Of a stretch of DNA of 64,000 bases, positions 11,395 to 61,238 are shown one piece after another. The number at the start of each line of letters is the position of its first letter. Position 1 is the stretch's first letter. This stretch comes from Patiria pectinifera. Its lineage: Eukaryota; Echinodermata; Asteroidea; Valvatida; Asterinidae. The DNA lies in NCBI GenBank assembly GCA_029964075.1, contig CM057149.1, forward strand, positions 12,224,465 through 12,288,464, in the 5' to 3' direction. The notes below the pieces were generated by a model. It was not told the origin of the DNA and searched no databases. It saw only the letters and a list, made by a program, of their open reading frames with translations. A program made the translations under genes and the position numbers.

Positions 11395-11647
11395 ATTGTA
11401 GATTAACATGTAGTGACACAAAACTTGACAAGTTAGGTTTCTGAAATTGCACTGCAGGAGGCTCACTTAGTCTCTACGGGAGAATACTTGCAAATACCGA
11501 GCAGATGGACTCGATCATCAAAACTATATTAAAAAAAACTCCACTGTCATCTCAGCACACATCAAACTTTAATTACGTGCACGCACGAGCGTAACAAAAG
11601 CCGTTTAATTTTACCCTCAATAAAACCTGACCGGGATATTTCATTAT

Positions 11648-11923
11648 CTGGTTGCTATTAAAAAGGCAGCTTCAATGATCACAGAGCAGAACAGAACAGA
11701 GAAATTTGATCCTTTCTTGTGCTCTATGGTGGGGGACAGCTTGAAACACTTTATGCTGATCATTGTTAGGCACGCCGGTGCTAATCTGGTTGCTATTAAA
11801 AAGGCAGCTTCAATGATCACAGAGCAGAACAGAACAGAGAAATTTGATCCTTTCTTGTGCTCTATGGTGGGGGACAGCTTGAAACACTTTATGCTGATCA
11901 TTGTTAGGCACGCCGGTGCTAAA
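11648..11923. repeat. Near-perfect 138-bp tandem duplication
   Basis: The two units (11648..11785 and 11786..11923) look identical apart from the last one or two bases, so the duplication is recent. The period of 138 bp is a multiple of three. The frame stays open through both units on both strands (plus-strand ORF 11675..12100). I do not recognise the encoded peptide on either strand (plus-strand example: TEKFDPFLCSMVGDSLKHFM), so I treat this as a repeat and not as a proven gene. Confidence 0.85.
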
Positions 11924-37579: not shown

Positions 37580-39215
37580 CTAGTCACCAAAAGTATATAA
37601 GGCACAAACCAACTCAGCATCTGTTTTTAACTTCTTTGTCTGGTGGACAAAGTCCTCTAACGCATCCTTGTACACGCAAGGGTTCTTCAGGTACCCAGAT
37701 TTGATCCTGGTGACAAAGTCATCCAAATCTGCCAGCACCTTTTTCTGGTTAACCTTTGGAGATACTGCTTTGATTTTCGTCTGTTTAGCTCCTGTGCCAA
37801 TCTTTCTTGCTTCCAGCGGAGTATCGTCAAACTCTGAAGGAGCTTGATCAAAGTCATCTGTTTCGGAGATGTCGTCCTCCCTGGGACGCTTTCGCGATGG
37901 AGTACTCTCCTCCTCCTCTACGGTTCCTGCAATCTCGAAGAGGAGCTTGCTCGTGGCTTCGTCATTCACACTGATGAAGTTCCAGGAGGGGATGTAGAAT
38001 CCTGTCAGGACTGCCAACTGGTGGCAGCAAGGTCCTCCTGTGCTTCCCACACGGCAGGTACAAAGCCCGACAGTCATGTCCACTCTGTAAGGTTGCTCTG
38101 TGGATTTCTCGCTGGGGATGAGGAATATCATTGCAGACTCCCTGATGATTTGGTCTTTGTGGGTACACGCAGCAGTACCCCCACTCGAGACATACCGGGA
38201 CCCTAAGGCCTCATTCAGCCTGTTGTGGCCAACATCCAGGAGACGTTTCTGGTAGTACTGGTCCATCCTGGTCAGGAGGAAATCCACCAGCTGGACAATG
38301 TTGTACGTCTTGGCTCGATGAAAGATCTTGTCCTTCAGGATCCTCATGGCTGATTCGCAAAAGTTACTTGTGTTGTTGCCACACAGGGGCAAATTATGCT
38401 GGTAGCACAGTGCCCATTCTGTTCTTCTCTCATACATCCTGAGATACATAGATTTCACTGATGAGTACTTGTCCGCAATTTCATCGTGGAGAATACTCTG
38501 ATAGGAAGCTTCTAGCTCCGTATCTGAGGATGCATACAGCATGGACTTCATCAACTGGAAGAGGTAGGGCCCATCACCTCTCTGGTTCTTAACCTTGGGG
38601 TCAAACAGGTGCCTCCAAAAGGCCTGCAGGACTTGATAGATGCACAGAATGAGAGTGGACCGGGGATAAACGGCACCCAGGGCAGACCTCTCGGCGTCCA
38701 AGTCATCCGTGAAGAAGACTTCAGGACCTGCCATGCCTCGTCCGTAGAAGGCAGTGTCTCCCAGGATCTCTTGGCCGAGCTGGATGGCTGAATGGACAAG
38801 GGGCTTTGAGTCGCCTGTGGTGATGAAGGCACCCAGGGGCAGGCCGCCGGCAAAGCTGGGTGTCATCATCATGTACACGTGAGTGTTGTGCCGACTCATG
38901 TTGCCCGAGGCATCCATGAAGACCATCTCCCCAGCGTACCTCACCAGGGCGTGGGTGCGCTTCATCAGTGGAGTGATGATAGCCATCACCAGCTGATTCC
39001 CCTCTACTTTCATCCGGACACAGTCTCCATTCTCCAGATTGTACTTGTCAATCTTCTCCTTCATCATCTTCACCATCTCTGGGTTGGAGCTGACAGTGAA
39101 TGACTTCTTGTCCTTATTTTTGCCCAGTGTCTCTTCAGTGACCTCCCTTGACTCAGGCACGTACTTCAGCCTCGCTCGGTTGCTTTTTTCCTTCACAAAA
39201 GTTTGATTGTAGAGC
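37580..39215 (-). CDS. SWIM/MULE gene, terminal exon 5
   Basis: This exon has 545 codons including the stop (37580..37582), entered in phase 2 after TTCAAAATAG. It carries the whole DDE-like core, the SWIM finger and the charged C-terminus. A long uninterrupted exon of this kind is common in transposase-derived genes. No AATAAA was found just downstream. Confidence 0.93.
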
Positions 39216-42200
39216 CTATTTTGAAGGGGAAAAATACAACAAGTGTAAATTTCAAACAACTCATTTACATGTGTACATGAATTAGTGGCCTTCTGATGGT
39301 TCAGAGCTTTGAGTTCTCATCATCTCTTTTCAATTTTTTTGGATAATGCTGTGTTTGACCAGCAATGAGAGAACCCACTGCCACTGTTTCAGAATGCCAT
39401 TCATTAAACTGTATATAAAGTAAAGTTCCAGTGTGTGCAAGATAAATAACACTCTGGAGGTTACTACAGAGATCAGTGATGTTTTTCATTTCAAAGCGCA
39501 GCTGTACATCTAGCCCAGTGAGTGCAAGGAAAGGTCTTCATTACGATGTCTTCCTCATGTGTTGTAATTTTCAGCGTTATTGTCAATTTTGCATGGTGAC
39601 ATTTTTAATTCCTGTAAGTCTCTTAGTATTAAAGGTAGAGTAGATCATTTGTCGTTTGAAGCAACAGAAATGCTAAAAATCAAAAGGAGGGTGCTGAACT
39701 AAACTGATGAAGTTTTAGCTCAGTGAATGTTGTACATTCCAAGAAAACACTATTCCAGGATCTCAATTTCAATTCAAAAGTTGCCGAGTCATGTTTTGAA
39801 TTGCCCCCGTAATCAGCATCCGGGACACGTTCTCATTCAGCCGATTGCAGCTTCGCGATGTCACACACTGAACCGACGAATTATAGCAGCCGGGCAGGCA
39901 TGTGTGTGGTGTGAACGATTGCGCACCCATTCACAGCTTCGCCAAATAAAAAAACAACCTACTAACGGAAAATTCAAATTGCCTTCTTTTTTTTCTTTTT
40001 TCCAAATGACAGTATGCCAGAACGATTAATTTCAAAGGGAGTTTAGTGTCATTACTACCTTAAGTTAAAGGGAATGTACAACATTTGCTTTTGCTGCAAT
40101 TTTCGGAATTGGAGGATTAGTATGTTATAGCAAATACATGTATTGTTAAACTGACTTGTTTCACGTTTTGGGCTTGTAGATGCTGGAAAAACCAAGAAAA
40201 CCAATCATGTTCTTGTAGTCTGATTCCCTGACTCCACTTAAGATGAAACGGAGCAATTTATAGACTTTGGGGAATTGTAAGTTCAGAGAATCGGTCTAGC
40301 TGGCTTGTACCCCTTCACAGGTGTGTAATCAACTGCAAAGAAAATGCGGAATAACTAAATATAAAAAATTAGGAGCAGTTTTTGAAAAAAGCCAGTTTTC
40401 TCCAACGCTGGTCGGCCGACCAGCGTTGGAAAAATACAGTTTTTCTTGAAAATGTCAGCACACCAGGAGCCACGATTTTACAGGATGCTTCAGACTGTCA
40501 TTCCTTAACAATCCAAAGGTACTTCGTGATAATTTGATCATTTCATTTTTTGATGTTTGCAAATGTTGTATCTTCCCTTTAAGTATGCTTTTCAACAAGA
40601 ATGCCATAAGTTACTTTTTGGATGGCAGCAAATGAGATACTCTACCTTTGCATTATAGAGAACAAAAATGTCTCGTACCTCCAGGTAAAGTTGAGATCAG
40701 GATTATGATGTCTGTCTCCACTCAGAAAGACGTAGTTGTCGCCATGCTCCATCTGCAGGTCATACTGATGCATGTTCAGGGCACTGGTGGGCGAGTGGCC
40801 TGCCAGGAAGAGCTTGATGAGCTTCTTGCGTACATGCTTAGAGACGTCTCGGTGCCGGAGAACATCGGCGGCCTTCAAGGGGTGGTTGTGGTCATGCCTC
40901 AGGACTACCGTCATGGGCCACTGGGGGAGATGGTGATCTTCAGATCTGGGGACGGCAGAAAAATGGACAAAAGAGAAATAATAGTAAGGTTTCACATGAG
41001 AATGGTTATGGTTTAAAGGACACTACATCCTGGAATACGCCCAATTGGGCTACAAAACGCGCTTTGAACAAAATGATGTTAATCGGAAAGAACATTTAAA
41101 AGTAGGATAAACATCCATGCAACTATCCTTCAAAACGAGGGAGTTTTTGTGTTATTCTAGTATTATTTGTGCGAGAACGAATTTCAGGGTCCACTTCTGC
41201 GACCCCAAAAATCAGGCTGTTTATGCTTGTTGTGATTCCATCCGTCAAGTGTTCGCCTTTTGCAGACATGTAAGAAACCACATTTGTGCATTGTGTATCG
41301 CATATTGACTGAACACGACAGGAAAAACGTATGCGTACTCTGTCGCGTCCGATGTAAACAACAGGGTTTATTTTTTCGTCTTTTATCAGGAATGGTACGA
41401 CATACGGTTGGTTTCCTTTCAACCAGATGTTTAAAATAGAAGAAGAAAGTAATCCAAAACATGAAACTTTCAGGGATTTCAGAAATTAGAGCCCCTTCGT
41501 GCCAAATAGGGCATCAGTTTGTTTATTTATTTATTTGTTTTGTGTTATTTTACCAGGGTAGCCCCATCAGGGCCCTTTAATGTATTGGAGTATTGGATCC
41601 AGCCCGCCAAAATCCATCACTGACCCTGCTTCACATATAATGCTTTAGGACCAAATCTGCTGAAATCCACCACAAGACCACCACTACTACAGGGTGGATC
41701 AAAAAAAAAAAAAAAAAAGTAACCGAGATATTATTGCTAATTGGACTGAGCAGTGACCAATTTTATGCAAGGGTCTATTTTAAGGCTTGCGCCACTTTTC
41801 ATGGTGAAATCACTTTTTTCCCCCACCTGCCTTGATTGGCAACCATAGCCTTTCACTCTGTGACAAATGACACCACAATTGAAAAGTGGCGCAAGCCTCT
41901 AAATAGACCCTTGCATAAAATTGGTCACTGCTCAGTCAACCGTGAATGTAAGGACATGATCAGGGTGTCATTTTAAAGAGGAGATTCAACCCTAACAGAG
42001 GACATATCTCCCTTTGATTCACATGTGCCCTACTTCTGTTCCAATTAGCAATAAAATCTCGGTTTCGTTTTTTATTATCCACCCTGTATAGGTGGACTTA
42101 CATGTAGTTGCTCATGGCTTGCCTACCAAAATCCCCAAAATAATGAAAATAGGGGGATAGATTTTGAAGGAGTTGGGAAGGTTAGGGTTAAAATGTTGGG

Positions 42201-52434: not shown

Positions 52435-52440
52435 TTTATT
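52435..52440 (-). terminator. Poly(A) signal AATAAA of the discoidin-SRCR gene
   Basis: The plus-strand TTTATT at 52435..52440 reads AATAAA on the coding strand, 77 bp past the stop codon. Confidence 0.6.
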
Positions 52441-52516: not shown

Positions 52517-52554
52517 TTACTGAGCCCCAATTCCGCCAAGAATGTTGTCGTCAT
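52517..52554 (-). CDS. Discoidin-SRCR gene, terminal exon 8
   Basis: After a strong pyrimidine tract and TTTCAG, the phase-1 frame reads DDDNILGGIGAQ and stops (TAA 52517..52519). A poly(A) signal follows about 80 bp later. No membrane anchor or GPI signal is visible. Confidence 0.72.
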
Positions 52555-55500
52555 CTGAAAGAGAGATCAAACCAGAAAAAAACCCCGGAAATTAGAACAG
52601 AAACATGATTTTGTATGAGGTGAATAAAACACAAGACCTATGATAAATTCTTGAACAGAATTCGGAAAACTGGCGATTTGATCGGCTACTTTTTACTTCT
52701 TGTGACGTAATTTTGAGATTTTATTTGATCTGTTTAGCAACAGAACTACACTGCAATTATTTTGTACTTTTTAATTAAACACCGGACATAATTCACAATT
52801 TCAGCGCTGGGTGCGTTATCGTACAAAAAAGGAGGACCTTCTGTATATGTAAACTTGCAGGTGTCAAATCCCGCATAAATTAAATTGTTAAAACGTTTTT
52901 ACCATAACGGCAGACCACTCCAGCATCTTGGGCGTGGCTGCAAGTCGACTCCTCCCAGCACTGGGACGGGCAGTCGCCGAGCGCCTCCTCCGAGCCCTCA
53001 CAGGCCACGCCTTCCATGTGGACAGGGCCGCTGCCCTGCCCGAAGTAGGCCCCCATCTTGGCCTCTTCAGCCTCGGAGAAGCCCAGTTCACGGCATACCA
53101 CGGTAGCGTCGTCGATATCCCACTTGTTGTCGCAGATGGTGCCCCAGGTCTCGTTGCGGTAGATCTCCACCCGGCCGCTAGAGTTTGAGCCTCCCACCAA
53201 CCGAATGGTGTCTAAATAAGGTTCAAGTAAAACATATTTTGGGACGGTTCTAGCTTTCGAGAAACGGCCGGGAGGGTGGGGGGGGGGTGTGATATGAAGG
53301 GGGATGGGGGAGTTGAGTGAAGGCATGCCGAAGGCACGCCCTACTAGGGGGTCCGGGGGAAGGCTTCCAGAGAACTTTGAAATCTACGATAGTTTCTCCT
53401 GCATTTTATGGCAATTTGAGAATGAAGTTAAGAACGTAAGCGTTCAATTAATTATTTTTAGCCCATTTTATTAGTCAGCGGATGAACGGGGGTGGAGGGT
53501 GGGGGTGGGGGGGTGGGGGGTGCAGTGCAACTCCCGATCCAGCAGTGCATGTACATTTTATCGGGGATGTTTGGGGTAGTGATCGGCCGAACATTGTAAC
53601 ACTGAAGAGGCCTTTTGAGCTCCAAAATACCCACGCAAACCAAAGGCGCCCCCTGAACATACATATGCGGTCACAATAGGAGGCCGCTATTTGGATCGGG
53701 TGAAAATAAAATAGCATTCGATCAGGAACCATACAGTAATCATATTTTTGAACAACTCTGATGTAACGCTGGGTAGTCAACGATAATTTGGGTACATATT
53801 CGGGATCCACCAATCGGTGTCGGTCGTATCGCCGGTAGGCCTGTATACCAATATTATGTGCGTATCATCGTAACCCACATCAGGAAGCCAGGACCAAGAC
53901 GTTTCGTGATGATGTTTCGACCATCCGAGTTGCTCATAGTTTACACAAACAAAAGAGCGCCCTCCTGTTGTGGACTTGACCATCATATTTTCCAAAAGGT
54001 TAAGGGGAGAAATGGTGATGTCGACGGCGATAACTTTATAGATCCTTTTCAAGGGAGCCATCTTGGGAGGGGCAGTTAATTTGTAGGGGCGTGTACCGTG
54101 TGTGTCTAGCCATTTGTTCATTTGTTGTTACCGAATTACTCTCCTATTTGTCTGGGTTCAAAGTGTCTATATATGAGGATGATGATGACAATGATGATGA
54201 GAAGAAGAAGAAGAAGAGAAATATAGTATATGAACAACTGCAACTGCTATTTACTTAGCTTGGGCAGACAGACCACACCGGCTACGTCGGAGTTGTTGCA
54301 CTGCTGATAGGCGGTGCAGACAAACGGACAGTCAGCCAGCCGGCTCTCTGTCCCCTCACAGGCGACTTTGTTCATCACGACGGGCAGGTCGCCTGTCCCG
54401 TACTCCGATGCTTTATTAGCCTGGACTGCGGCGCCGAGGTCCAGCTGACGACACACGACGTCAGCGTCGTTGATGTCCCAGTCACTGGCGCAGACGGTTC
54501 CCCAGCTCACCCCTTCGCCGTGGTGGTAGATTTCCACACGGCCGCTCCTTTCGTCGTCGCCGTCAACCAACTTAATCGCACCATCTTCAGGAACTGTTAG
54601 AGGGCAAATTCTACTCAACTGATCCAAAATGGCAAAAAAAACATTGACTCGACTCGACTCGACCACACACTGTGACTCAACTCGACTCGACCTTCTTGAC
54701 CTCAATGACTCGCCTTAAGTTTTCTTTGTACCTGACCGACTCACTGATTGTCACATGTGAATCAACGACGTAGCTATATCGGGGGTGGTGTCGGCGTGGG
54801 GGCGCCCCATGAATAATCGTTCCCCAAGTCGCCCCCACTGGAAATTTGGCGTCCAGAAGAAAAGCACAGTCCTATAAGTTACCATTTATTAACGTGTTGT
54901 TCTTAATGTTCCCGTTTTTACACGTTTTCTGTTTATTTTTCACAAAAACCCTGTTTCCGCGTTTACCCTCCCATGGAAATCGAATACCCCACCTATATCG
55001 TCTGAAATTGACCATGAGTCCCATGTTGAACGGCGCCAACATGGAAAGATGCCCCCCCCCCCCATTTGATTTTAAGGCAGCTGGTGCCCAGTGGAAAAAA
55101 AAACCCAAAACAAAAAAACAAAAACTTGTCTACCTTTCAATTCAGCACGGATGAAATTGGGCGCCCTCCAGCTCCCCCCTCACTTGCACTGTTAGGATGT
55201 AAACCCTGGCTACGCTACTGTACCTTAGCAAAAAGTTGACCAGCTTTACTAGACTCAAGGGCGGATCCAGGGGGGGGGGGGGGCAAGGGGGCCATGCCCC
55301 CCCGAAAAAACAACATCAACAAACAAACAAAACACAAACACTTTTTTTAAGTGACGTCGCAATAAAAGGCACCCAACGAATACACCGCCATCTTTTCCTA
55401 AAAAAACCACACTGTTTATTGGTCACAAATTGCCTCAGATCTCACAACAGAGCATCTAGAATGAACACCAAAATTCAGGGCCCTTATAAAGCGGGCCCTG

Positions 55501-58500
55501 AACCGCACGCCGTATTTTTTGACCCACTTTTTGGGGACCAGCATTTTGTTGCCCCCCCCCCCCCAAAAAAAAATGGGTTCCGGATCCGCCCTTGACTAGA
55601 CTAGCCTATTTAACAAAATGAATAAATTGCATTAACAATGTACCTTGACACCCGAGCACCTCAAATCTTAGATTGTAGCAGCCACCTTGCCACTGAGATG
55701 GGAAGATACGAATATACCTCGCTAGGGGTACCATCGGGAAGCTGACATTTGTCGCTGCACCACTACTCACTCTGAACTGTAAGAGAATTGATTACATGTT
55801 TAAAGGGAGAAAATGTATTGAGTACGTTTGGTTGAGGTCTGTGGCCAAAGATCTCGATATAAAGTGCAACATACTCAAACAATGATTTGACGGCTTTTGA
55901 AATCGGTCATTATTGTCGAAAAGAAAATGTTTAGACTGTGTGAATGATTGACGTGTGAATTATGTTCAGTATTTCATTGCTCTGTGAAATATTTGATTGT
56001 CCAGAAAAAAAATTCTTGCAAAATCGCAAGTCCCCTTCTAGATCCGTCACAGTGTGTGTTCAGAAAACCACTGACCGTGACAGTTTGTCCAACGTCGTTA
56101 GACAAGCTACTCCAGTCACCGGAGTCCGCCGTCATGCTGTACTGCACTGAAAATGCCCTGACAAAATATGTGGAAGTGGAGTATCTGCCTTGCATGGTGA
56201 GCCCAGTAACTGCCGTGGGTTTACCCAGGTCGACCTGGATCCACTGCCCATTTGGCGTTCTCGGTTGCCACCCGTAGCTCCCTGATTGACATGAAAGGTA
56301 TTGGAAGAGTCAAGTTCTTCAAAGGTTGTGCAGTCGCAAGTCACACGTGTTAAAGCAAACTGTCCTTTGTTATCGTTCATCAACTGTTACTTGTGAGGAC
56401 TCGTGAGTGGGCTTAAAATATAGCTTTGATCGGACTTGAAATTGATTGGTGATGGATTCGACTAACACTGTTGTGGAGTAAGTAAAAAATATAGCGTCCA
56501 ATGTGTTATCCCCCCCCCCCCCATTCTGGTGAGGTGGACTTATAGGGGCAGGGAGAACACTGACCTCGGGCTGGAAGTGTGCAACCCATGCGGGATGATG
56601 CAGCCCCCTTTCCCTTGATATGAAGTTGTCATTAATTGATATTGTAATCATTTCCTCAACGGCGGTAGTTTGCAGAAAGACTAACGCAAACTTTTTTCTT
56701 CAAAATGAGAGTATTAACAACACCCGAATCTATAAAAATGAGCAACAGTGTGTTAACGTTTAGTCATTTGGCTAAATTAAAGCATTCTTTTCTTAACATA
56801 ACAGTCACCTTTGTCGGCAATACGTGTCAACGTGTTTTGCATACGATTCATATCACTCCAAACAAACTTGTATAAACCTCGTTGAATAAAATATCGTCAA
56901 AATTGTGTCAACTATTTTTGGGGGGATTTTGACCCAAAAGGCGTTTATAAATGGGAAGTACAAAATAAACAAACAAAACTCACCAACATTAAGACGAGCG
57001 GCACGTGGGTAGTAAATGGCATAATAGTAGAAGGACGATGCTGTGATGCTGCTATCAGGGATAGCCCCGTTTTGCATCCCTAAAGGCCCACCGATGCAGG
57101 GTGCTCATGAAACCGAAGAAAAATTGCATACATTTATTACATTATTTTAATGGCATACAATGTTGTGCGATGATAATCAAATTATTTAGAAATATGTGAA
57201 ACATTTGTTTATTTATATGTGCAGTGTACGATTGTTTTCCTACTTCGGATAATTCAAAACTGTGAGTAGTATTAAAATGTCCAAACTTTGTTTCTCATAA
57301 CAGCGTCGTTTTAGATTGAACACTGACATGTTTGTCCAAACCTTGTGAGTAGGCCGCCGAAATTCTAAGAGAATGAGGACGCTGTAAGGATGCTTTTTTA
57401 AAGTTAAATGATGTGAATCCCAGGTTAATATTATTTCTTTATAATTTGCATCGTTATGGTTTCTTTTCCGTAAGCCTGCATGCTCTCATTCTGAACTTAC
57501 CGGATGTTCCAAAGTGTTCATCTCCATTGATAGGATGAGACATGCATGGTCCTTGAAACGAGAAAGTTCATGGATAACAGGAAAAACATAATTGTATTTT
57601 TATCTGCGGGGTAGCTATAGCAGTTCAACAAGTCATCATGTCTCTCCGTTAGTTAGTTAGTTAGTTGGGGAGTTAGTTAGTTAGTTAGTAACAAACGCTT
57701 TATTTGTTATAGTAACAATCGTTGCAGTTGTATATTGCTCCTACATATTTGGACCGCTTTCAACCAAACTTTGTCAAAAGTATCAGTAGCCCAACCCCAA
57801 GATGTCACATGACGAAACTGGGGTCAAAGGTCATCATGGAGTCTGGGCCAAAATAACTTCACATTCAAGTTCAGATGACAAAATTAGCGCTGTCAATCTC
57901 GTCACCGACACCACGAAGTAACACCAAAGTCCACTTCTGTGTTGCGTGAAAACCGCTTAATGGCAAATTTTGGTTTCACGAAGTATAACACTGAAGTGTG
58001 CGCGCACATCGGACACTGGCACGAGCGATTTTCGTTTTCACAAAGTTACAACACTGTTACAGAAATATTATTTGGATAAAGACGTTTCACTGAAACGCTT
58101 GACAGAAATGTAATTAATCCGTACTCTTGTAGGATTACAGAATATTTTAATAAAAAGCCTTCAAATTGGTGAAATGATGATGAGTGTTACTTCGTGAAAA
58201 CGAAAATGACCGAGTCAGCGCATGTTGTACATGAGTGTTACTTCTTGAAAACGAAAATCATTCGGTTCTGTTAAATACGCGCGCGTAGCGCGTACTCAAG
58301 TCCACTTGGGTGTTACTTCGTGGTGTCGCTGATTATGTTGGCCTAGGTCAAACATTAAAAAATGCCCCTCGTGACCTCTTCGTATGACCCTCAGCTATAA
58401 GGTCAAAGGTCAAAGTAAGGTCAAATGCCAAGAAACATGTTAAGAGTCCTCCAATCATGCCAACCAACAACCGGTATGAACACGAATTCGTTGGCCCGCA

Positions 58501-61132
58501 GCTTCCGAGATCCGATCGAGATGGATTTGAATTGAAACATTGACTTTGTTATCGATTAACTTGAAGGGGAAAACCTGCCAATACTTTTTCACAAAGTCGT
58601 TAAGAATTTTCTTCAGATAGGGGTATATTTGAGAAAACATTGGACTGATTCGGGAAGATTTTACCAACAATGTTTGATAAATGTTTTACCTACGTTGACG
58701 AGAAGTTGTGCAATTACGATTTTTTTTATATATATATATAAAGACAAAAAACTCAGAGTAGGAAGTTGGGCATAGGGTATTGACAATAACGCTGGTGTAC
58801 TGTAGCTTAATGACATGCGCATTGTGACACTTCTGTTCGTTCTCTTCACACAAATTACGATATTTTTTTCTTGATTAATTTCTTATTTTTGTGGTTTTGT
58901 TTGAAAAACTAGAGATTCGCGTTTGTTGAATTGCAAACACGGGGTGATCGGGTGGGCAACTCTTTCATTGAAAATACGTCCAGATAAGTTGTGAATATTT
59001 CAATTTCAGAAAGGAATAAAATGAAGAACTTTTCAGCTTTCAGTGAAACCATTTGTTTTAATTTGAAAAAAAGGGTCCTTTTGCGTTTGATAAATTGTAG
59101 TATAATTTTATTAACACATACTCATAATTTCTGTTTGATGACGTCATCAGTTAAATGTGCAAACACAATATTCATTAGTTCAGCGAGGACACATACAGGG
59201 TGAGTAAAAAAAAAGCGGAACCCAAACCCCCAAAATAATATTTCATATTTAAAAAATATGTATCACCCTAGTAATAATATCTGGAAAGCCAATTTCATAA
59301 GCTACTTTTAGATGAACAAATTACTGAAATCGTCGCCACAAAATTGTCTTCAAACATCACCAGTGATAAAGCCTCAGTTTAAAAATTAATATTCAACAAA
59401 ACTTTTTAAATATGGAATATTTTTTTCGTGGGGGGGAGGGTTGTGTTCCGCTTTTTTTTTTTACTCACCCTGTACAATGCATTCCTCACGAAGTGAAACA
59501 AAAAGTAATTATGCATTTTTAAGTCATATCTCACCATGGGCCGGGTGCAAATTTTCTTTTCACAAACGAAATCCGCATACATGGTTGTTTAGCGCCCTCT
59601 ACGATACTTTTTTGATATAGGTATATTCTTATTTGTTTCCGCATGTGTCTCGTACCCCCCGCCCTGCAAACAGGACGCTGGGATACTCTGATGCAACCTC
59701 GTCCCCAGGGTGTCGAGCAGTACGCACCCACCACTACCTGCTCTCTCACCCTGGTATTGGATCATTTGCATGTGCAAGATTTTTGAACACGTATGCAAAT
59801 GAGGAACAGTCTGGTGCCTGGATGTGCCTTACACATTAGCGTTTGTTTTTGTATGCGGTGTCTGGGGTAAAAACAGAGTCAATTCGTAGCAGCGCGAGCA
59901 CGGCGTGAGTTACGAAAACACGATTTTTGAAATCAAACTGTTACCATCTTATCGAGACAACATGCAGTATCATATTTCATATTAATATGAGCAAATTGGA
60001 AAGGAAATTAGTATTTTCGGGAAGGCGTGGACGAATGATCGTGAAAACACGTACTGCACGTTGTGAATAATAGCACCAAGTACACGATAAAAATCCATTA
60101 CTAGCCAATTGCGGTATCGAATCAGGATACAGGAAGAAAGTTTCCTATCCGGGGTTTACTATTGAAAACGCGGTTGGAAATAAAGTAAGCACTGGGGACG
60201 AGGGTGACTCTGATGAGCTTCACAGAATCTTGTGAAGGAAGTGGCCTATGACATATGTATAAAGCATCTGGCTGCAGCTGTTCAAGACCGCAGTTAGACA
60301 ATGTGCGCAAATGCTATCCGAAAACTTCCCATAGAAATGCGCACATTCTATACCGGATGTGATTTCTGTTTCATTGCGGACTAAGTGGAAACATTTTTGA
60401 GCGTCGCATAATGCAATCCGACCGTTCGTGATTCGAAACGGAGCCTGAGCAAGTGACAGGAATTGTCAATTGACAACACAGATACGTTTTACAAAATTTC
60501 CTACATTATTACGCTTTTCAACGAGAAAAAACCATCTCTAAACTGGAATAAAAGAGTAATGAATCAGTCTTAAAGGCCGTTTCAAACCTTACAGAGTCAT
60601 GACCTTGATGACGCGCAGGTCACTGGTCACGCAAAATCCAACCAATCAGGGCGTGAATTCATCAGAGTATCCCAGCGTCCTGTTCGCAGGGCGGGGGGTA
60701 CGAGCGAAAGTCGATAGAGGATACGATTTTGCACCGCGAGGTTGCGGGTTCGAATCTCGGTTTTGCACCCGAATTTGTTCCCTTTTCTAATCTGAGGCTT
60801 TGGAGTATTTTTTTAAAAATGAAATAAATTCCAAATTTCATAACGTTCAAATTCACTTTTTTTTCTAATTGTATATTATCTTCTCATGTTTTTATAAAAG
60901 TTAAGTCCAAAACCCCATAGGGCGTACATCCATATGTGGATGTCGTTTGGGATAAAAACAATTCGCGGGCCGGGTTTTGTTCGATGTCTCGTTCAAAATG
61001 GAATAACGTTTGTAATGCGGGCAACATTTTGAAAATAGCAAGGACAGCACAAACTTGAAGCGGTACTTTCACTCTTTACTTACCAGAGAAAAGAGTCAAC
61101 AACAGAATCACCAGGATGCGACTGGATGCCAT
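52517..61132 (-). CDS. Secreted discoidin (F5/8C)-SRCR-SRCR protein (406 aa, eight exons)
   Basis: The join is complement(52517..52554, 52903..53211, 54255..54593, 55644..55776, 56076..56281, 56984..57079, 57501..57551, 61084..61132). All junctions are GT-AG and the phases agree. The 1221 nt give 406 residues and a stop. Residues 1..16 (MASSRILVILLLTLFS) form a signal peptide. Residues about 19..177 form a coagulation factor 5/8 type C domain (GMQNGAIPDSSITAS, GQWIQVDLG, ARYIRIFPSQW, ending in LGC). Two SRCR domains follow (about 180..291 and 292..394), each with GRVEIY, WGT(V/I)C, VVCR and VACEG. There is no transmembrane segment, so it is most likely secreted. Discoidin domains bind lipids or glycans and SRCR domains bind microbes and other ligands, so a role in recognition or adhesion is a reasonable inference. 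A TATA/CCAAT promoter and a poly(A) signal bracket the gene. Confidence 0.87.
52903..53211 (-). CDS. Discoidin-SRCR gene, exon 7 (SRCR domain 2)
   Basis: This 309-nt exon (phase 1-1) encodes the second SRCR domain: [40 protein letters not shown] and GVACEGSEEALGDC. It again has seven cysteines, with the extra one in PSQC. The donor is G|GTAAAA. Confidence 0.92.
53480..53531. repeat. G-rich tract with four or more G runs
   Basis: Several runs of four to seven G separated by single T or TGGA form a candidate G-quadruplex sequence, in the intron between the two SRCR exons. Confidence 0.6.
54255..54593 (-). CDS. Discoidin-SRCR gene, exon 6 (SRCR domain 1)
   Basis: This 339-nt exon encodes one whole SRCR domain in phase 1-1, the usual arrangement of SRCR exons. 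Motifs are SGRVEIYHHGEGVSWGTVC, DADVVCRQL and KVACEGTESRLADC. Seven cysteines are present. An extra one (PFVC) precedes the usual QQC. Confidence 0.92.
54641..54694. repeat. GACTC/CTCGA short tandem repeat
   Basis: The 5-mer ACTCG is repeated in two clusters (GACTCGACTCGACTCGACC and CAACTCGACTCGACC) directly upstream of the SRCR-1 exon on the coding strand. Confidence 0.6.
55248..55602. mobile_element. hAT-type MITE with 8-bp target duplication
   Basis: The octamer ACTAGACT stands at 55248..55255 and 55595..55602. The terminal inverted repeats CAAGGGCGGATCC/GGATCCGCCCTTG begin and end the 339-bp element. Long G and C runs lie just inside both ends. The octamer duplication assigns it to the hAT superfamily. 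It sits in the intron between discoidin and SRCR-1 exons. Confidence 0.85.
55644..55776 (-). CDS. Discoidin-SRCR gene, exon 5
   Basis: This 133-nt exon follows the acceptor TCTCTTACAG. It encodes FPMVPLARYIRIFPSQWQGG and then LRFEVLGCQ, the C-terminal strands and last cysteine of the discoidin domain. It ends in phase 1 at G|GTACAT. Confidence 0.88.
56076..56281 (-). CDS. Discoidin-SRCR gene, exon 4
   Basis: This 206-nt exon enters in phase 1 after GTCAATCAG. It encodes SYGWQPRTPNGQWIQVDLG, VTGLTMQGRY and VRAFSVQYSMTADSGDW, the central strands of the discoidin fold. It leaves in phase 0 at ACG|GTCAGT. Confidence 0.9.
56984..57079 (-). CDS. Discoidin-SRCR gene, exon 3
   Basis: This 96-nt exon (phase 1 to phase 1) encodes MQNGAIPDSSITASSFYYYA and then RAARLNV. 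The G-M-x-N/S-G-x-I-x-D/N-x-x-I-x-A-S signature is diagnostic for discoidin domains. The donor is G|GTGAGT. Confidence 0.87.
57501..57551 (-). CDS. Discoidin-SRCR gene, exon 2
   Basis: This 51-nt exon (phase 1 to phase 1) encodes PCMSHPINGDEHFGTS. It supplies the first cysteine of the discoidin domain and is placed by the fit CTCGTTTCAAG acceptor / TCCG|GTAAGT donor. It is the least certain internal exon because it is short and has few diagnostic residues. Confidence 0.68.
57643..57690. repeat. GTTA microsatellite
   Basis: Two runs of the 4-mer GTTA are separated by GGGGA, in intron 1 of the discoidin-SRCR gene. Confidence 0.85.
57902..58331. mobile_element. MITE with CGACACCACGAAGTAACAC ends
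   Basis: The terminal inverted repeats are CGACACCACGAAGTAACACC and GGTGTTACTTCGTGGTGTCG. Inside, the word GTGTTACTTC.TGAAAACGAAAAT recurs twice, and the inverse of TTTCGTTTTCAC also occurs. It sits in intron 1 of the discoidin-SRCR gene. Confidence 0.75.
59194..59474. mobile_element. TA-flanked MITE with CAGGGTGAGTAAAAA ends
   Basis: TACAGGGTGAGTAAAAAAAA with AGCGGAAC and its inverse bound 281 bp. The terminal CAGGGTG is shared with the element at 41688..42087. No coding capacity. Confidence 0.8.
59651..60702. repeat. 1-kb segment bounded by 43-bp inverted repeats
   Basis: CGTACCCCCCGCCCTGCAAA to ..GGGATACTCTGATG at 59651..59693 returns inverted at 60660..60702 with about one mismatch. A SINE begins just at the right arm. 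Confidence 0.65.
60696..60971 (+). mobile_element. tRNA-derived SINE, copy 1
   Basis: A B box, GGTTCGAATC, lies at 60747..60756 inside a T-arm-like GCGGGTTCGAATCTCG, with an A-box-like AAAGTCGATAGAGG upstream. The body is shared with 62385..62646. It lies in intron 1 of the discoidin-SRCR gene, antisense to it. Confidence 0.65.
61084..61132 (-). CDS. Discoidin-SRCR gene, exon 1 (signal peptide)
   Basis: This exon has 16 codons plus one base (phase 1), ending at G|GTAAGT. The leader has a basic residue early and the hydrophobic core ILVILLLTLF, a textbook signal peptide. A core promoter lies about 95 bp upstream of the ATG. Confidence 0.78.
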
Positions 61133-61223: not shown

Positions 61224-61238
61224 CTTATATACCATTGG
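61224..61238 (-). promoter_or_regulatory. TATA box and CCAAT box of the discoidin-SRCR gene
   Basis: On the coding strand CCAAT (61234..61238) is followed immediately by GG and TATATAAG (61224..61231). The expected start site is about 30 bp downstream (near 61195), leaving about 60 bp of 5' untranslated sequence before the ATG at 61132. Confidence 0.65.

Follow-up and report, generated by a model that had tools for sequence, protein, structure and literature searches.

Between positions 52517 and 61132 of a 64,000-nucleotide (nt) stretch of starfish DNA (Patiria pectinifera, contig CM057149.1, here C21; the whole stretch is called the window) lies a gene on the minus strand whose predicted protein joins one discoidin (F5/8 type C) domain to two SRCR domains. 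The gene has some 40 family members including itself, a fact that an earlier sequence-only reading of the window had overlooked, and we read the family as a putative tandem repertoire of secreted recognition proteins.

The gene runs from 61132 to 52517 in eight exons. All seven introns have GT..AG ends, the exon phases are compatible throughout, and the coding sequence of 1245 nt gives 414 residues and a stop. The features are listed below, where L031 is the nearest paralogue.

61226..61231, minus strand: TATA box (TATATA), 99 nt upstream of the ATG, a sequence match only; L031 also has one (TATAAA at -96)
61084..61132, minus strand: exon 1, which contains the ATG and encodes the likely signal peptide (MASSRILVILLLTLFS); the L031 counterpart is MASSLNLVILLVSIFI
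57501..57551, minus strand: exon 2, short N-terminal linker PCMSHPINGDEHFGTS, placed by splice sites and phases and kept in L031
56984..57103, minus strand: exon 3, which opens the F5/8 type C domain and carries Cys36 and the first variable loop (residues 58-65)
56076..56281, minus strand: exon 4, the central part of the F5/8 type C domain, which includes the second variable loop (residues 106-113)
55644..55776, minus strand: exon 5, which completes the F5/8 type C domain and carries Cys185
54255..54593, minus strand: exon 6, encoding SRCR domain 1 and its extra cysteine, Cys279 (DCPFVC)
52903..53211, minus strand: exon 7, encoding SRCR domain 2 and its extra cysteine, Cys384 (DCPSQC)
52517..52554, minus strand: exon 8, the final 12 residues DDDNILGGIGAQ and the stop; the last 12 residues of L031 are identical
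52435..52440, minus strand: poly(A) signal (AATAAA), 76 nt downstream of the stop, a sequence match with no conserved equivalent in L031

Discoidin and SRCR are the only families that score above the Pfam cut-offs in the predicted protein. F5_F8_type_C (PF00754) covers residues 52-182 (E 1.3e-21; 77.4 bits against a cut-off of 28.2) and SRCR (PF00530) matches two stretches (E 8.5e-55; 183.7 bits against a curated cut-off of 26.1), which places the protein in the SRCR superfamily; no Pfam match to CUB, ZP or MAM was listed up to E = 1. Membership of the discoidin family is further indicated by a full-length alignment to neuropilin-2 and by Cys36 and Cys185, which bracket the domain and are presumably a bonded pair. 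The protein is neither a DMBT1 nor a neuropilin. DMBT1 has many SRCR repeats alongside its CUB and ZP domains, whereas here there are only two SRCR domains and no match to CUB or ZP. Neuropilin has CUB and MAM domains and a membrane span, whereas here neither domain is matched and no strong hydrophobic span follows residue 30. SRCR groups are defined by the number of cysteines per domain, six in group A and eight in group B (PMC13228809). Both domains here have seven and so fall in neither group; the other six cysteines of each align with the six of sampled canonical SRCR domains.

The N-terminus is hydrophobic, with a 19-residue hydropathy of 1.83 against a maximum of 1.09 beyond residue 30, where no strong membrane span appears (hydropathy only, no signal-peptide program). 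An N-terminal signal peptide is likely, and the protein would be secreted and soluble. Most of what the sequence-only reading had claimed holds up: the GT..AG introns, the phases and the presence of all eight exons in L031 bear out its eight phase-compatible exons, the Pfam search recovers its one F5/8 type C and two SRCR domains, and the promoter and poly(A) signal that it proposed correspond to the TATATA and AATAAA motifs above. Its open reading frame of 406 residues has to be corrected to the length given here. A secreted discoidin-SRCR-SRCR protein of an invertebrate deuterostome, as it had concluded, is supported by the gene model, Pfam and L031 together. From the sequence evidence we are close to certain of the predicted gene model (eight exons, 414 residues) and of the family of sister genes.

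The family and its nearest member

In the 613.5 Mb assembly, the A chain of the starfish relaxin-like gonad-stimulating peptide matches contig C2 over 24 of 24 residues, as expected of a starfish that is probably Patiria or a near relative; a search for cytochrome oxidase gave no match. Exon-by-exon searches of the assembly each scored a fraction of their candidates (for example 101 of 1520 and 150 of 1107), so the family counts are lower bounds. They gave at least 46 pairs of SRCR1 and SRCR2 exons (39 on C21, 1 on C963 and 6 on C15) and at least 40 genes, 39 on C21 and one on the unplaced contig C963, in which the two SRCR exons have discoidin exons upstream. Discoidin exon 4 lies upstream on the same strand, 2.2-7.9 kb from exon 7, in 37 of these 40 pairs, and in the remaining three it is discoidin exon 5 that is found upstream. 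Six further genes (L032-L037) were read over most of their length and have exons 3-7 with the order kept; no convincing counterpart of exon 2 was found in the four examined for it (L032-L035). Two of the 46 pairs are likely damaged copies or assembly errors and were kept in the counts, one with a stop in SRCR1 (C21 27026248-27026565) and one with a split frame (13010262-13010584).

The six pairs on C15 had no match to exons 3, 4 or 5 among the genome-search candidates scored. The only one of them read upstream, L038 (C15 7735000-7744600), has a different exon before SRCR1, and no discoidin exon was found there. Pairs of this kind concern relatives of the window gene and not the window gene itself. 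Further upstream in L038 there is an open frame that resembles a C-type lectin by eye.

The genes compared below are grouped as subfamily A (26.4-27.14 Mb; 21 genes, 18 with exon 4), subfamily B (24.7-25.8 Mb and C963; 9 genes), subfamily C (11.6 and 13.0 Mb; 6 genes) and subfamily D (the window gene and L031). The largest subfamily occupies two blocks, C21 26.41-26.70 Mb and 26.95-27.14 Mb, whose genes point in opposite directions, the pattern that an inverted duplication would leave.

L031 is found at 12.497-12.507 Mb of C21, 220 kb from the window gene, and has all eight exons in identical phases and a frame of 413 residues. Counts of silent and amino acid changing substitutions between the two genes are similar (59.1 and 58.9), and the changing rate per site is well under the silent rate (nonsynonymous to synonymous ratio, dN/dS, of 0.26 overall), as in coding sequence under constraint.

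The divergence between the two genes is a mosaic. Nonsynonymous differences amount to 42 in 348 sites in the discoidin part versus 4 in 530 in the SRCR part. The discoidin exons have a synonymous divergence of 0.52, versus 0.157 for SRCR1 and 0 for SRCR2; counted as sites, this is 39 of 104 for discoidin versus 11 of 154 for SRCR1, SRCR2 and exon 8 together (P = 2e-9, counts rounded). The 5' flank is 90.4% identical to within about 20 nt of the ATG. Nothing in introns 1-5 can be aligned except for 21 nt in intron 2, and introns 6-7 with the 3' flank are 88.5-91% identical. Intron 1 is 3532 nt long in the window gene versus 479 nt in L031, in part because of three transposon-like elements with inverted terminal repeats (57902-58332, 59194-59474 and 59649-60704). 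Such a mosaic could result from gene conversion acting on the flanks and the 3' half, or equally from a re-duplication that kept the discoidin part. L031 exon 4 is the nearest to the window gene among those found (78%, the next 69%), as is its exon 6 (97%, the next 72%, among 13 aligned). A discoidin part swapped into either gene from a distant paralogue was therefore considered and rejected: with both exons still the nearest, it is simpler to suppose that exchange has homogenised the flanks and the 3' half.

Variable loops and a seventh cysteine

Mean dN over mean dS for exon 4, SRCR1 and SRCR2 is 0.54, 0.36 and 0.39 in subfamily A, 0.95, 0.54 and 0.41 in B, 0.44, 0.31 and 0.11 in C, and 0.28, 0.07 and undefined in D. 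At synonymous sites exon 4 is more diverged than the SRCR exons in A and D; in B and C it is not. The variation of the discoidin domain sits after TASS in exon 3 and after Q/K-G in exon 4, and the lengths of these two loops differ between copies (28 exon 3 and 37 exon 4 sequences).

As a description the loop variation is solid. In subfamilies A and B, which the entropy analysis covered, mean entropy in loop and framework is 1.56 and 0.38 bits for A exon 4, 1.62 and 0.28 bits for B exon 4, and 1.46 and 0.20 bits for A exon 3. In each of these three cases the loop is the top window of its length (1 of 62, 1 of 61 and 1 of 33, the loop itself counted), and none of 10000 random column sets matched its entropy. 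The SRCR exons reach at most 0.59-0.91 bits in any 7-codon window, versus 1.46-1.62 bits for the loops. Both variable loops align with loops of neuropilin-2, at places where neuropilin contacts its ligands. In neuropilin-1, b1 binds VEGF through Tyr297, Tyr353, Asp320, Ser346 and Thr349 (PMC5947257).

The extra cysteine of each SRCR domain lies four residues past the fourth standard cysteine (DCPxxC). It is present in both domains in 45 of the 46 exon pairs and replaced by serine in both domains of the one other (24.745 Mb), with no mixed pair. It is absent from all six other SRCR domains of the genome that were hand-picked from the search listings, and it was not seen in seven CD163 domains aligned in full. 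A good guess is that the two cysteines form an interdomain disulfide (Cys279-Cys384), a prediction for which an intermolecular bond may be the alternative.

Elsewhere in the window, the minus strand has a 578-codon open frame at 37580-39316 with a weak match to the SWIM zinc finger (E 5.5e-4), which we guess to be a MULE-type transposase remnant or perhaps a gene. A tandem repeat of two exact copies of 138 nt is found at 11646-11922.

Proposed role and its alternatives

The explanation that we prefer for the whole, held at a little short of an even balance, is that of a secreted soluble recognition protein which would belong to a tandem-duplicated starfish family. The discoidin domain would contact its ligand through the variable loops, as in neuropilin b1; by analogy we regard this step as evenly poised. 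Each paralogue could then bind a somewhat different ligand. The two SRCR domains would be a conserved unit stapled by the disulfide between the extra cysteines, and this shared half might hand a bound particle to a common partner, for example a receptor on coelomocytes or, in aggregates, the protein itself. The protein would thereby act as an opsonin or agglutinin. This immune step is argued from other proteins and is more tentative, and we would sooner doubt it than assume it; starfish SRCR proteins are cited as opsonins in PMC13409769 and PMC10396339. The recognition molecule of the sequence-only reading becomes more plausible with a large family whose discoidin loops vary, and its function is still something that we infer. 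A more far-reaching version would have a germline repertoire of about 40 secreted proteins. The discoidin domain would be a recognition scaffold in which two ligand-contact loops diversify while the framework hardly changes, much as hypervariable loops do in antibodies, and the disulfide-stapled SRCR pair a constant effector half kept uniform by gene conversion. We think it rather unlikely that this version holds in full.

Several results weigh against the preferred explanation. Between the window gene and L031 the discoidin domain has a dN/dS of 0.25, which is purifying overall. Exon 3 of subfamily B (n = 6) has no loop excess, with 0.43 bits in the loop and 0.31 in the framework, and 15 of 31 windows and 2564 of 10000 random sets are as high. 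The loops were picked after the alignment had been inspected, so the entropy figures describe and do not test. When nonsynonymous and synonymous changes are counted on a tree, their ratio in B exon 4 is 1.87 in the loop versus 0.72 outside (P = 0.08). In A exon 4 it is 0.46 in the loop versus 0.56 in the framework, and silent change in this loop is raised along with nonsynonymous change; variation of long standing, exchanges among the copies or alignment errors near gaps may play a part. Positive selection on the loops is suggestive in one subfamily only (B); as a proven claim it was rejected, given the A ratio below that of the framework and the P value in B. The case for the disulfide comes from a single joint loss (Fisher P = 0.022) among paralogues that are not independent. 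In addition, a crude scan of six members (L032-L037) found no convincing signal-peptide exon, so secretion is supported for the window gene and L031 only.

The roles of the two halves could also be reversed, with ligand bound by the SRCR domains, as it is in DMBT1 and CD163, and the discoidin domain doing no more than anchor the protein to a cell surface or lipid. The relatives of the C-terminal half with solved structures include SRCR domains of CD163, CD5L and DMBT1. However, if ligands differ between paralogues, conserved SRCR exons and variable discoidin loops are the reverse of what this arrangement predicts, and we consider it unlikely. Slightly less likely still is an adhesive, mucus or matrix protein of the epidermis or tube feet with no immune role. 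A secreted DMBT1-like protein from a study of crown-of-thorns spine secretion has F5/8 type C, EGF and SRCR domains (PMC10448888), which favors this possibility, but loop variation across about 40 paralogues would be unexpected for a structural glue, and Pfam gives only the discoidin and SRCR families above its cut-offs.

Rapid change of contact loops in tandem copies would also fit a protein of gametes or of allorecognition whose diversification is driven by reproduction. No link of the family to gametes turned up, no search having been aimed at them, and we judge this improbable. The remaining concern is that the gene model is artefactual, its exons being broken copies or parts of separate genes. 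Among the 46 related SRCR pairs, two do appear damaged. Against this, the open frame, splice sites and phases are found in all eight exons and are repeated in L031 under purifying selection, so that we give an artefact hardly any chance.

Relation to known systems

Large echinoderm SRCR families have long been suspected of microbe recognition. Combinations of F5/8 type C and SRCR domains are already reported in echinoderms (PMC10448888, PMC10855680), of which the sequence-only reading had not been aware: 36 F5/8 type C domains are counted in the SRCR genes of S. purpuratus, and F5/8 type C is among the top domains listed for those of A. planci (PMC10855680). These sea urchin and crown-of-thorns genes share with the window gene the two domain families and the tandem clusters; unlike them as described in that source, the family here has one discoidin domain with two seven-cysteine SRCR domains, and variable discoidin loops. 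The crown-of-thorns DMBT1-like protein is likewise from a starfish, secreted, and composed of F5/8 type C and SRCR domains, but in the source it has EGF-like domains too and its domains are repeated throughout (PMC10448888).

Like neuropilin b1/b2 and the C domains of factors V and VIII, the protein has a full-length discoidin match, including the loops that contact ligand in neuropilin b1. Unlike neuropilin, it matches neither CUB nor MAM and shows no strong membrane span, and its loops vary between paralogues. The SRCR part matches the SRCR domains of CD163, CD5L and DMBT1, but has the seventh cysteine that the seven CD163 domains compared do not, and the protein lacks the CUB and ZP domains of DMBT1 by Pfam match. 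ApSRCR1 of Asterina (Patiria) pectinifera (Furukawa 2012) is reportedly a starfish SRCR protein with opsonin activity, to go by the title, and is said to be a multi-SRCR protein without a discoidin domain. The sea urchin Sp185/333 (SpTransformer) proteins, which we take to be unrelated and to lack SRCR and discoidin domains, are also a diverse multi-gene echinoderm family and reportedly opsonise bacteria; this comparison is one of how the proteins work only.

A family of exactly this build with variable discoidin loops was not found in the main-text excerpts of open-licence literature. New here are the seventh cysteine in each SRCR domain and the concentration of discoidin variation in two loops, with the SRCR exons conserved. 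The family offers a simple test case, being a compact protein whose paralogues differ mainly at two mapped loops and share a half that stays constant and is predicted to have a disulfide between its domains. Should the loops determine specificity, the discoidin fold would join the scaffolds used for germline-encoded, diversified recognition.

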